From Kangiella sp. (GTDB lineage: Bacteria > Pseudomonadota > Gammaproteobacteria > Enterobacterales > Kangiellaceae): a stretch of 53,897 nucleotides of DNA. This document shows, piece by piece, positions 9,471 to 12,916 of this stretch. How positions within the stretch are numbered: position 1 is the stretch's first letter; each line of letters opens with the position of its first letter. The stretch spans positions 1 to 53,897 of the forward strand of contig NZ_JABURJ010000146.1 in the NCBI RefSeq assembly GCF_014762745.1, read 5' to 3'. The translations under genes and the position numbers were made by a program. The notes under the pieces are model-generated. The model worked only from the letters and a program-made list of their open reading frames with translations, made no database searches and had not been told where the DNA came from.

Positions 9471-9496
9471 AAAAAGCCAGCGTTTGCTGGCTTTTT
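9471..9496 (+). terminator. Rho-independent terminator after gcvP
   Basis: Perfect hairpin AAAAGCCAGC-GTTT-GCTGGCTTTTT directly after the gcvP stop codon. It separates the gcv genes from the borosin block, whose first gene starts only 34 bp later, leaving very little room for a separate promoter. Confidence 0.9.
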
Positions 9497-9529: not shown

Positions 9530-10330
9530 ATGGCAGAATCAAAAGGCGAATTTATTGCAGTCAGTACCGGGATGAATTTAGGGGGGCAGATTTCGGTAAT
9601 TGCAAAAGACTACATTCAGAAAGCGGATGTTGTTTTCGCACTGATGCCTCATACGTTGGCTGAACGCTGGCTAGAAAGACTCAACCCAAATGTAAAAAGT
9701 TTGCAGCCATTTTACGGTATAGGAAAATATCGCATGCAGTCATATGAAGAGATGATTGAAGCGATGATGGTAGAGGTCAGGAGAGGTAAAAAGGTGTGTG
9801 GTGCTTTTTACGGCCATGCTGGTGTGTTTGCCTGTGTACCTCGTTTAACCATTGATAAAGCCAGAGAAGAAGGTTTCCGAGCGCTAATGGAGCCGGGTAT
9901 TTCAGCTGAGGCGTGTCTTTATGCAGATCTTGGTATCGACCCCGGTGTACACGGTATTCAGGGATACGAGGCTTCACAATTTTTATTTTATAATCAATCG
10001 CTTAACAACGCTGCTTACGCCATTATGTGGCAGATTGGGATAGTTGGTGAACATACTGCAACTCAGTTTGAAACCAAGCCAGAATGGGTTGAAGTGTTTG
10101 TTGAAAGATTAGCGGAATGGTATCCAGTTACTCACGAAGTGATTTTATATGAAGCAGCTGTTTTGCCGATTGAAGTACCGAGGACCGAACGCCTCCAACT
10201 AAAAGATTTAACCCTAGCGGAAATGTCTACAAAAACCACGCTAGTAATACCGCCAGTAAGAAATCTTGAGCTTAATATTGATGTTCTGGAAAGAATGGGT
10301 TTGAAGCCAGAAGATATAACCCACGGGTAG
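9530..10330 (+). CDS. Split-borosin peptide backbone N-methyltransferase (OphMA/SonM type)
   Basis: A 266-residue SAM-dependent enzyme of the tetrapyrrole-methylase fold. It is not a cobalamin enzyme: the whole chain follows the OphMA/SonM borosin methyltransferases that N-methylate peptide backbone amides. The active-site residues Tyr62, Arg68 and Tyr72 in FYGIGKYRMQSYEEM keep the 6- and 4-residue spacing of OphMA Tyr66/Arg72/Tyr76. The FYGHAGVF block (93-100), the AREEGFRALMEPGISAE block, ADLGIDPG and IMWQIGIVG follow in family order, and STKTTLVIPPV ends the methylase domain. Unlike fungal OphMA no core peptide is fused at the C-terminus; the probable substrate is the 73-residue protein 70 bp downstream. 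A purine-rich site (AAGGAAG) precedes ATG 9530. Assignment by recognition of the family, not by search. Confidence 0.85.
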   Translation: MAESKGEFIAVSTGMNLGGQISVIAKDYIQKADVVFALMPHTLAERWLERLNPNVKSLQPFYGIGKYRMQSYEEMIEAMMVEVRRGKKVCGAFYGHAGVFACVPRLTIDKAREEGFRALMEPGISAEACLYADLGIDPGVHGIQGYEASQFLFYNQSLNNAAYAIMWQIGIVGEHTATQFETKPEWVEVFVERLAEWYPVTHEVILYEAAVLPIEVPRTERLQLKDLTLAEMSTKTTLVIPPVRNLELNIDVLERMGLKPEDITHG

Positions 10331-10352
10331 CGAGTTGGAAGTTAGTAAAAAA

Positions 10353-10368
10353 TACTGTATAAACAGTA
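10353..10368 (+). promoter_or_regulatory. Small hairpin between the borosin methyltransferase and precursor genes
   Basis: Perfect 6-bp stem TACTGT-ATAA-ACAGTA followed by the T-rich stretch TTATTATTTT. It could be a weak attenuator or processing site that sets the ratio of precursor to enzyme, or a dyad operator. It is placed 32 bp before the precursor ATG. Confidence 0.35.
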
Positions 10369-10400
10369 GCTTATTATTTTAATAAAAGAGGGAGTGCGCT

Positions 10401-10622
10401 ATGTCAAAGCAAAAATTAGAAGAGTTCATTATTCAGTTGAGTGAAGACTCGGACCTAAAGCAGTCGTATATCGAAAATCCGATGGCGGTTATGCAAAAGA
10501 TTGGCTTGGAAGAGCAAGAAATCAAGGCGATTATGTCCGGGGATAAGAGGCAAATATCAGCAATGCTTGGACAGGATGCTGAGCTGATCGTTACAGGAAT
10601 AATACACTTGGTTAAAAAGTAA
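10401..10622 (+). CDS. Split-borosin precursor peptide
   Basis: A 73-residue protein. Residues about 6-55 form an all-helical leader of the borosin-binding-domain kind (LigA-like fold), with the typical stretch ENPMAVMQKIGL (25-36) followed by EEQEIKAIMSGDKRQI. The remaining C-terminal tail from about residue 57 (GQDAELIVTGIIHLVKK) is short, hydrophobic and beta-branched, as expected for a core whose backbone amides are methylated; Ile63, Val64, Ile67 and Ile68 are candidates. No Cys is present, arguing against lanthipeptide or thiopeptide chemistry, and there is no double-Gly leader. A strong GAGGGA ribosome site precedes ATG 10401. It is located 70 bp after the matching methyltransferase. 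The methylation sites and any proteolytic release are inferred. Confidence 0.8.
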   Translation: MSKQKLEEFIIQLSEDSDLKQSYIENPMAVMQKIGLEEQEIKAIMSGDKRQISAMLGQDAELIVTGIIHLVKK

Positions 10623-10668: not shown

Positions 10669-10735
10669 GTGGTAAGCTCGTCATGCAGCTTGTTATTCAG
10701 GAAATAATAGATAAGGATGTTTGGACTCTCACTGT

Positions 10736-11800
10736 ATGAAACCATTCATAATAAAACTTTGCATTACATTGGCGCTACTATTGTTTGCGTCATTGGCTAT
10801 TTCTGTTCAAAGTTTAGAAGATAAACTTAATGAAGCACATCGACTATTAACCTCAAACCCGGAAGTGAGCGGAAAACACCTTAAGGAACTAGAGTCTGAG
10901 CAATCAAATTTTAATGAGGTACAAAAAGAAAGGTTCTTATTATATAAAAGTCATAACTTACTCCTAGAAGGTAAGCACAGCGAATCAATTCTATATTTAA
11001 ATAGATTATTAGAAGGAAGTAATAACAAAGCTACAAAAGCACAAGCCTATTCTATGTTGGCGGTGGTGTACACCAACACCTCTGAGTTTATGAATGCTTT
11101 TGTAAGTATAGAAAAGGCAAGGTTGATGTTAGATGGTTTAACAGATGAAAAAGCAATTAAAACTGTATTAGCAAATGCCGCCACAATCTATACAGAAGTA
11201 GGGTTCGTGGATAAGGCTTACGAGTTCTCAAATAGCTATCTCAAAGAAGTAAGCAAAGCTGGAATAGCAAAGGAGCTATGTTACGCATATTTTAATTCGG
11301 CATATATAGAAATACAGCTTCAAAATTATGAAAAGGCTCAGGAATATTTTTCAATAGCTCTAAATAATTGTGAAAAATCAAAGCAAGAACTTTTTTTTAC
11401 AGTGGCGTCACAGGAAATCGCTTCTATATTATTAATGAAGGAAAATGATATTAATCATTTAAATAAACTCAAAGAATTACAGGACAAAATCAAAGATATA
11501 AATTGGGATATTGCCGAGGTGGGTGGTTTAATTAAAATTGCAGAGGCAAATTTAAGGTTAAAGAAAAATAAAGAAGCGATAAAATATGCGGAAAAGGCAT
11601 TCAGTGCTGAAACGACTGACAACTACCTGCCCCATAAAAAAGAAGCCACTAGAATATTAGCAACCGGATATTCTAATCTGGGGGATAACGATAAAGCAAT
11701 TGAGTATTATCAATTGTATATCGACACGGAAAGACAAATTCAGTTGCAATTAAAACAGCGTAAAATGGCTTATTTTATTGCAATGCAGAGTATGGAATAA
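10736..11800 (+). CDS. Exported TPR-repeat protein, first of a tandem pair
   Basis: A protein of 354 residues with an N-terminal signal peptide (MKPFIIKLCITLALLLFASL, probable cleavage near SVQS) followed by helical tetratricopeptide-like repeats across the rest. Clear repeat units include KAQAYSMLAVVYTNTSEFMN, AYFNSAYIEIQLQNYEKAQE and ATGYSNLGDNDKAIEYYQLY. The C-terminus QRKMAYFIAMQ is shared with the next gene. TPRs are protein-binding scaffolds, here probably periplasmic; no enzymatic domain is present. ATG 10736 is chosen because it begins the signal peptide; an in-frame TTG at 10721 has AAGGA three bases before it and is the alternative. The gene is AT-rich and follows the borosin precursor on the same strand. 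Confidence 0.7.
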   Translation: MKPFIIKLCITLALLLFASLAISVQSLEDKLNEAHRLLTSNPEVSGKHLKELESEQSNFNEVQKERFLLYKSHNLLLEGKHSESILYLNRLLEGSNNKATKAQAYSMLAVVYTNTSEFMNAFVSIEKARLMLDGLTDEKAIKTVLANAATIYTEVGFVDKAYEFSNSYLKEVSKAGIAKELCYAYFNSAYIEIQLQNYEKAQEYFSIALNNCEKSKQELFFTVASQEIASILLMKENDINHLNKLKELQDKIKDINWDIAEVGGLIKIAEANLRLKKNKEAIKYAEKAFSAETTDNYLPHKKEATRILATGYSNLGDNDKAIEYYQLYIDTERQIQLQLKQRKMAYFIAMQSME

Positions 11801-11809
11801 GGCTGGAAC

Positions 11810-12916
11810 ATGAGTAAATCTTATTTTGAAAAAGCAATGAAAACTACCGTCACTATAATCTATGGCATGTTAATGCTGATAGGGTTTAACAATGTTGCGC
11901 AGTCTGAAGAAAATCTAGAGCCTCATGGTTATTCCAATATTCTAGAAGCAATTGAAATTGATAAGACATCAAATATTGAGTCGGCAAAGAAATATATAGA
12001 GCTGCTTGAGAAAGACTACGAAAAATTAAATCCAGATGAAAAAGAGTTGTTCACACTCTTCAAAGGACATGCATTAGCACTTGAAGGTAAATTTGATGAC
12101 TCAACAAAGAAACTTGAAGAACTGATCCGGAATTCAAAAAATGAAACGCTTGTCACTAGAGCTCACGCATTAATTTCAAATATCTATTTATTTGCTGGAA
12201 ACTATGAACAGGCATACCAGCATGCTTCTGATGCAATTGAGGGGCTGGATTCTATGGATTCTCACCCTTGGCATAAGTATGCCGCACTACAGAATTTAAC
12301 AAGTTTATTTAGACAGTCAGGAATGACAAACACGGCTATTGGCTATGCAAGACAAATGCTAAAGGTTGTCAGCCAGAACAAACATCCGTTACAACTGTGT
12401 GGTAGTTATTTTGAGTTGGCAGATTTGGAGTTGAGCATAAAAAGTGTAGATATGGCACGTATTCATAGTGAAGAAGCTATGCTGCATTGCAACGAAGCCA
12501 ATGATCCTATTTATTACACTTTGGCTTTAGATTTACAAACAAAGTTAATGGCTCAGGCTAATAAAAGTGATAAAGCACTTGAACTACTCAAAGAGCATTA
12601 CCCTGTAGTGAAGTCAGTGGACTATAAAACAATGACCAATGTGTTTGAGATTAGACTTGCTTCAACATATCTTGAATTAAAAGATTTTACTAATGCTCAG
12701 ACAATTGCTGAATTGGCTTATCAAAGAGCAGAAGAGTTAAACGATAAAGTTCGTCTAATGGAGCTCTCGAAGATTCTGGCCAGTGTTTACTCCGAAACGG
12801 GTGAGTTGAAGAAAGCCGTAGAATATTATCGTCAATACATCGACCTCGAAAAAGAAATTGATATTATGACCAACAAACGCAAAATGGCGTACTATATGGT
12901 CAGTCGTAGGAAGTAA
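11810..12916 (+). CDS. Exported TPR-repeat protein, second of a tandem pair
   Basis: A 368-residue paralogue of the preceding protein. It has a hydrophobic signal segment (about residues 10-30, ending near VAQSEEN) and TPR-like repeats such as ALISNIYLFAGNYEQAYQHA and LASVYSETGELKKAVEYYRQ. Its C-terminus (YIDLEKEIDIMTNKRKMAYY) aligns with YIDTERQIQLQLKQRKMAYF of the first copy, so the pair arose by duplication and then diverged. It starts 9 bp after the first gene with AAGGCTGG as ribosome site, so the two are cotranscribed. The helix before the end resembles the linker preceding membrane-signalling domains in TPR sensor proteins, but no such domain follows. It meets mutH tail to tail (4-bp gap). 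Confidence 0.7.
   Translation: MSKSYFEKAMKTTVTIIYGMLMLIGFNNVAQSEENLEPHGYSNILEAIEIDKTSNIESAKKYIELLEKDYEKLNPDEKELFTLFKGHALALEGKFDDSTKKLEELIRNSKNETLVTRAHALISNIYLFAGNYEQAYQHASDAIEGLDSMDSHPWHKYAALQNLTSLFRQSGMTNTAIGYARQMLKVVSQNKHPLQLCGSYFELADLELSIKSVDMARIHSEEAMLHCNEANDPIYYTLALDLQTKLMAQANKSDKALELLKEHYPVVKSVDYKTMTNVFEIRLASTYLELKDFTNAQTIAELAYQRAEELNDKVRLMELSKILASVYSETGELKKAVEYYRQYIDLEKEIDIMTNKRKMAYYMVSRRK

Follow-up and report, generated by a model that had tools for sequence, protein, structure and literature searches.

A predicted type IV split borosin pair in Kangiella sp. and its conserved association with TPR proteins

The methyltransferase and the small protein encoded side by side in the window (here, the whole analysed stretch of 53,897 nucleotides from Kangiella sp., contig NZ_JABURJ010000146.1) are supported as a type IV split borosin, with N-methylation of the core inferred by homology with SonM/SonA. 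The pair very probably makes a backbone-methylated peptide, methylation being inferred without direct evidence. The preferred reading, to which a probability of roughly 0.55 was assigned, is that the locus is part of a conserved precursor/methyltransferase/TPR module whose peptide acts on the TPR protein. It is supported by computed homologies, module conservation, co-inheritance, gene fusions and predicted topology; methylation, release, location and binding are inferred. According to PMC8429565, no final natural product had been assigned to any type IV pathway as of 2021, which left the role of bacterial split borosins open at that time. The near-constant TPR partner and, in one family, the fusion of sensor to methyltransferase described below give reason to seek peptide signals in Gram-negative bacteria. 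A literature search returned no paper tying borosins to diguanylate, tetratricopeptide or Kangiella; the main borosin surveys lay outside its reach, and the TPR link could have been published before.

The enzyme and its precursor

Both open reading frames (ORFs) reported by the first-pass annotation were recovered, each on the plus strand with an ATG start and with 70 bp between them (Table 1). The pair sits between gcvP and mutH. The nearest named relative locus, that of Kangiella aquimarina DSM 16071 (enzyme identity 92%), has the same neighbours, with gcvT-gcvH-gcvP upstream and mutH-rppH downstream. The hairpin read in the gap after gcvP was not flagged by the consensus terminator scan, and the promoter/terminator scan of the window gave a signal no better than that of shuffles. 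Within the window family, a borosin-type enzyme match was found in 38 of 40 genomes (the window genome counted) and a precursor match in 27 of 40. A second borosin module is present in the window's own genome (L067, 6367-9694), composed of a GNAT gene, an enzyme, an 82-aa precursor with an acidic PAEDDE-type tail end, and TPR-GGDEF. At the same gcvP site of another genome (L071, 1578-3800), the order is precursor-enzyme-enzyme-precursor, and the enzyme-precursor order of the window may have arisen from such a tandem through loss.

Table 1. Positions of the features recognised in the window and the basis of each assignment.
Feature	Position	Strand	Basis
Terminator-like hairpin GCCAGC-GTTT-GCTGGC, then T5	9471..9496	+	gcvP/methyltransferase gap; read from sequence
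Predicted alpha-N-methyltransferase, SonM-like, 266 aa	9530..10330	+	phmmer to SonM 7ltc_A and OphMA 5n0o; Pfam TP_methylase
Side-clamp/active-site stretch Tyr62...Arg68...Tyr72	9713..9745	+	alignment to SonM Tyr58/Arg67/Tyr71, 3-residue gap
Predicted RiPP precursor, SonA-like, 73 aa	10401..10622	+	phmmer to SonA 8t1s_B; AlphaFold model; Foldseek
Borosin-binding-domain leader, about residues 1-57	10401..10571	+	five short helices in model; SonA alignment
Putative core peptide LIVTGIIHLVKK, residues 62-73	10584..10619	+	ungapped alignment to 8t1s_B; inference
TPR1, secreted-type TPR-only protein	10721..11800	+	Pfam TPR matches; TTG ORF start, ATG 10736 likelier
TPR2, TPR-only, TPR1 paralogue (27% identity)	11810..12916	+	Pfam TPR_12 2.6e-14; model; Foldseek

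By phmmer, the enzyme matched SonM with an E-value of 3.1e-88 (52% identity, alignment covering SonM residues 2-262) and OphMA with 1.1e-41, and the small protein matched SonA with 1.8e-9, in agreement with the borosin-binding-type leader claimed for it; these values exclude chance similarity. All 25 distinct solved (PDB) sequences that matched the enzyme at E ≤ 0.001 were borosin enzymes by name or entry. A tetrapyrrole methylase of the Cob/Cbi/CysG type was rejected because none of the 25 is a corrin or porphyrin methylase. The clustering with such methylases that would have refuted the first-pass annotation is thereby contradicted; no such enzyme was placed in the tree.

The predicted Tyr62, Arg68 and Tyr72 are present in the enzyme, and the FYGHxGVF block reads FYGHAGVF and contains Tyr94. 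These four residues align with the core-binding Tyr58, Arg67, Tyr71 and Tyr93 of SonM, for which mutants and structures have been described (PMC8429565). The Tyr62-Arg68 distance is three residues less than that of the SonM equivalent, owing to an alignment gap. The Tyr/Arg/Tyr set of OphMA includes Tyr66. As regards the claimed OphMA-type spacing, the Arg-to-Tyr distance of 4 matches R72/Y76 of OphMA, residues named in PDB titles. The length of 266 aa, without a C-terminal clasp or core, fits the type IV enzyme, described as having about 263 aa and neither of these elements (PMC8429565). Compared with K. aquimarina, the enzyme gene showed a pN of 0.052 and a pS of 0.786 (dS saturated), indicating purifying selection.

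The AlphaFold model of the precursor (pLDDT 79.9) is a short-helix bundle plus a helical tail. In the Foldseek search with this model, the best 13 of 29 matches were SonA chains (E 0.03-0.5, TMq up to 0.70), 12 of the 13 superposing with an rmsd of 1.0-1.8 Å; E-values of 0.03 and above are expected for so small a protein. If the register of the ungapped alignment holds, Leu62 and Val64 of the putative core would correspond to Leu63 and Ile65, the methylated positions of SonA (PMC8429565). The precursor is 99% identical to that of K. aquimarina (dN/dS 0.004); across the comparisons with K. aquimarina and with two sister genomes, dN/dS was 0.004 and 0.024 (third pair saturated), which corresponds to strong purifying selection.

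The database labels foreseen in the first-pass annotation were both obtained: Pfam named the enzyme TP_methylase (8.1e-15) and gave the small protein a weak LigA-like match (20.3 bits, not reaching the cut-off of 25.3), and the first non-SonA Foldseek match of the precursor model was LigAB (TMq 0.75). Matches of the small protein to IniB, NHLP, Nif11 and YopX were weak, all below cut-offs. These labels could suggest a tetrapyrrole methylase next to an unrelated LigA-like protein, a reading that retains virtually no credibility against the 25 borosin enzymes among 25 PDB matches, the match to SonA, and the occurrence of a precursor beside 171 of 186 enzymes and in none of 6014 distant small ORFs.

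A type IV split borosin is defined by a separately encoded alpha-N-methyltransferase and precursor (PMC8429565). The window pair meets this definition, its enzyme and precursor being encoded separately and homologous to SonM and SonA, respectively, and it has the helical borosin-binding-domain leader, as judged from the phmmer match to SonA and the five-helix model. Reading the locus as a split borosin pair is thus upheld by its sequence, the residues of the active site, the architecture of the gene pair and the predicted fold of the leader, and methylation itself remains inferred.

Conservation of the TPR neighbour

The comparative analysis drew on 140 further stretches surrounding matches within the family and the order, plus 40 surrounding matches from other families, and the methyltransferase, TPR, GGDEF, histidine kinase (HK), GNAT and aspartyl protease genes were tagged by profiles built for this purpose. 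Pfam confirmed the tagged domains on sampled proteins (ten, then eight). The first set covered 147 of the 150 listed methyltransferase matches, three contig-end fragments being omitted; the second comprised 19 of the 45 listed matches in family f32, 20 of the 84 in f42 and one other. Gene and small-ORF orders were obtained with a simple ORF picker, with approximate starts, and the loci of related genomes are not independent samples.

Across the first set, a same-strand TPR gene lay within two large genes for 134 of the 147 methyltransferase genes (88 TPR-GGDEF, 24 TPR-HK, and 22 TPR-only), and the TPR tag occurred in 2 of 412 slots at the control gene offsets 4-6. The full set gave a TPR protein within 2.5 kb of 170 of the 186 borosin methyltransferase genes: 118 TPR-GGDEF, 24 TPR-HK, 22 TPR-only as in the window, and 6 fused TPR-GGDEF-methyltransferase proteins. 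A SonA-like leader-type precursor was encoded within 3 kb of 171 of the 186 enzymes and was not recognised for 15; the precursor profile yielded 188 matches in the 5968 small ORFs within 3 kb and none in the 6014 situated further away. TPR-positive families amounted to 10 of the 12 sampled, the two negatives being single genomes with long enzymes (L213 and L260). No same-strand TPR gene was found within 2.5 kb of 16 of the 186 enzymes; four of these are near another enzyme that has a TPR gene, one has it on the opposite strand, five are in stretches shorter than 10 kb at contig ends, and six are plain absences. The gene orders differ (MAT in 102 of 171, ATM in 15, AMTT/AMTTT in 8, and others), so the linkage survives rearrangement. 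GGDEF genes are common, with 16-57 per genome in nine genomes; chance adjacency of the TPR genes was ruled out by the positional profile, with GGDEF density in these nine genomes as an extra check.

Three loci with enzymes 92, 98 and 99% identical to SonM have the order methyltransferase, precursor (two precursors in L138) and TPR-GGDEF (595-596 aa). In the SonM-type loci, the TPR-GGDEF ORF at its longest begins with the base that immediately follows the precursor stop codon, which makes a coupled operon likely. In L150 (6342-7184 and downstream), of the SonM-type family f6, TPR and GGDEF are in separate ORFs of 413 and 154 aa; this locus, one of the 22 TPR-only cases, probably represents a split TPR-GGDEF gene.

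Other genes were also observed around the modules. A same-strand GNAT gene was located at offset -1 in 39 of 143 loci and a gene for a pepsin-like aspartyl protease at offset -2 in 20 of 138 loci (e.g., L100, 8852-10132; L161; L177; L184). By eye, both accompany PAEDD-type precursors, for which they are possible maturation enzymes. Multi-core-looking precursors were seen in L259 (5902-6336), L085 (7340-7774), L272 (7497-7922) and L090 (9034-9237), with repeat units such as YFCxVxTPE, KALIITPK/KALIIAPK, EEEIRxxA and KLLLLEP/KLLLLTPEA.

Co-inheritance, topology and the window TPR proteins

The enzyme tree was calculated with FastTree only and is unrooted; the short match L256 was dropped and L272 was retained. 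The output type of the TPR partner clustered on this tree, with 6 changes over 170 labelled rows; when "none" was treated as a state, there were 18 changes, compared with a mean of 64.7 after shuffling. Window-type enzymes, whose partners are TPR-only, formed a group of 17 rows (support 99). Next to it lay a 39-row group (support 80) of mostly TPR-GGDEF loci, SonM-type included, and the two were joined at support 92, so that the window enzyme groups in a 56-row set with enzymes 92-99% identical to SonM. The Mantel correlation between methyltransferase and TPR similarity was 0.70 over 160 loci and 0.76 within 37 loci of the genus Kangiella; none of 999 permutations was as high, relatedness being ignored. 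Most genomes of this genus have two modules, each keeping its own TPR type. A further TPR-only branch (L232, L233, L234 and L236) adjoins the HK-type loci on the enzyme tree, and the TPR protein of L232 keeps a C-terminal hydrophobic segment without an output domain.

By HMM tags, seven loci of f32 (L252-L258) encode a TPR-GGDEF-methyltransferase fusion of about 840 aa where complete, with a precursor just upstream in four of the seven stretches. Pfam found GGDEF and TP_methylase in all five fusions tested and TPR_12 at E < 0.001 in four of them, above the cut-off in two. Since seven of the nine long-frame matches in this family were chosen deliberately for fusions, their frequency is not estimated here. 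According to hydropathy, 151 of the 162 output-bearing TPR proteins encoded near an enzyme have a transmembrane (TM) segment immediately ahead of the output domain, and an N-terminal hydrophobic segment is present in 120 of these 162 and in 30 of 38 TPR-only proteins. Such positions assign TPR to the periplasm, with GGDEF, HK and methyltransferase on the cytoplasmic side; the TPR domain is therefore predicted to be outside the cytoplasm in most relatives. In the fusions, the methyltransferase occupies the sensor's cytoplasmic end, an arrangement that would suit a TPR protein sensing some other envelope signal, with the output or direct contact regulating the methyltransferase and hence the peptide. 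This direction of control is considered improbable, as the window lineage keeps TPR without an output domain while purifying selection still acts on the enzyme and the precursor, a pattern in favour of the TPR part having a role of its own.

The two TPR genes of the window are located 3' of the pair, at 10721-12916, outside the region 9530-10622 covered by the first-pass annotation. TPR1 has an N-terminal hydrophobic segment and no internal TM segment by hydropathy; the corresponding stretch of TPR2 was below the threshold, and no segment of this protein exceeded it. Neither has an output domain. The TPR2 model is a helical solenoid of confident quality (pLDDT 86.6), for which Foldseek returned the eukaryotic LGN first, followed by Rap and NprR chains (TMq about 0.6); on this model the fold would allow peptide binding but is common to TPR proteins in general, and no binding data exist. 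Comparisons with K. aquimarina and with two sister genomes gave a dN/dS of 0.03-0.07 for TPR2 (constrained) and 0.09-0.16 for TPR1 (less so). TPR1 and its orthologue end just beyond the junction motif KMAY, which is common to TPR-GGDEF proteins, and the end of TPR2 is similar. The motif (L/M/F/I)A(Y/F) was found at the junction in 18 of 22 TPR-only and 77 of 118 TPR-GGDEF proteins and in 19% of shuffles; in HK-type sensors (3 of 24) it was not above chance and so links the TPR-only form with the GGDEF type alone. An end at the GGDEF-type junction suggests, at the level of sequence, that the window TPR-only proteins are truncated descendants of a TPR-GGDEF ancestor.

Under the preferred reading, and by analogy with SonM/SonA, the helical leader would dock the precursor on the enzyme, and the hydrophobic tail would be N-methylated iteratively from SAM. 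It is hypothesised that the methylated tail is then released and enters the periplasm, where the TPR protein would bind it. Release and export have no explanation as yet, since neither an exporter nor a dedicated protease was recognised next to the window pair. In most relatives, TPR would serve as the sensing domain of a membrane-bound diguanylate cyclase or histidine kinase, through which the peptide would set the level of c-di-GMP or the state of a phosphorelay; the mostly sensor-type nature of the TPR neighbours suggests that the peptides may be signals. The window lineage would be a derived form without an output domain, in which the two secreted-type TPR proteins would function as binders, carriers or decoys. 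The peptide thus probably acts on the TPR domain, a functional step that is an inference without evidence of binding or signalling.

Comparison with known systems

The window pair resembles SonM/SonA of Shewanella oneidensis (PMC8429565; PDB 7LTC) in its separate enzyme, precursor of about 70 residues, helical leader, active-site Tyr/Arg/Tyr and hydrophobic C-terminal core, and SonM-type loci likewise have a TPR gene, TPR-GGDEF, after the precursor. The window differs in a side clamp shorter by three residues, a different core, the gcvP/mutH location, and a TPR partner that lacks GGDEF and is duplicated. The words GGDEF, tetratricopeptide and diguanylate are absent from the main text of PMC8429565. 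With the fused fungal borosins (OphMA, dbOphMA and MroMA), the window enzyme shares a homologous catalytic domain, the Tyr/Arg/Tyr set and the Arg-Tyr spacing, whereas in the fungal proteins the core is part of the enzyme itself, at the C terminus (PMC11285071). The serine peptidase OphP cyclises omphalotin (PMC12235650).

Of the 12 plasmid records matched, five were inspected (Streptomyces, Bradyrhizobium, Azospirillum, Burkholderia and Haloarcula). Enzymes were found in all five and leader-like small ORFs in three. An HMM scan of all five, two of which have no gene annotation, gave no TPR, GGDEF or HK tags. A prolyl oligopeptidase gene occurs in two of the three annotated loci, those of Bradyrhizobium (with a dioxygenase) and Haloarcula (with an ABC transporter ATPase). 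The TPR link as a general borosin trait was rejected on account of these plasmids and the long enzymes L213 and L260, all without TPR; the association looks like a trait of one branch.

Omphalotin, the founding borosin, is a bioactive natural product (PMC11285071), and the window pair could be an ordinary split borosin whose secreted product is bound by the TPR proteins for self-protection or as chaperones, with no signalling. Sequestration would suit the output-less TPR-only form, and the TPR1 dN/dS of 0.09-0.16 exceeds the 0.004-0.024 of the enzyme and precursor, where dS was usable. Sequestration would have no need, however, of the GGDEF or HK output that most relatives carry behind a TM segment, and neither an exporter nor a prolyl oligopeptidase was recognised at the window pair, unlike the Bradyrhizobium and Haloarcula loci; we hold this explanation to be unlikely.

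In the RRNPP type of peptide-TPR quorum sensing (Rap, NprR, and PlcR), the TPR receptor is cytoplasmic and the peptide is imported. An extension of the preferred reading, in which gammaproteobacterial split borosins, SonM/SonA included, would be N-methylated peptide signals for periplasmic TPR receptors driving c-di-GMP or HK in an RRNPP-like manner, with Kangiella as a derived TPR-only branch, is offered only tentatively and may well not hold. The module departs from RRNPP in a TPR domain predicted outside the cytoplasm (on the above counts of 151 and 120 of 162, a prediction only, the cytoplasmic receptor of RRNPP is not matched), in the proposed N-methylation of the peptide, in GGDEF, HK or absent outputs, and in the lack of sequence membership. 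What it has in common with RRNPP is the proposed logic of a small encoded peptide with a TPR receptor, together with the similarity, at the level of the generic TPR fold, of the TPR2 model to Rap and NprR.
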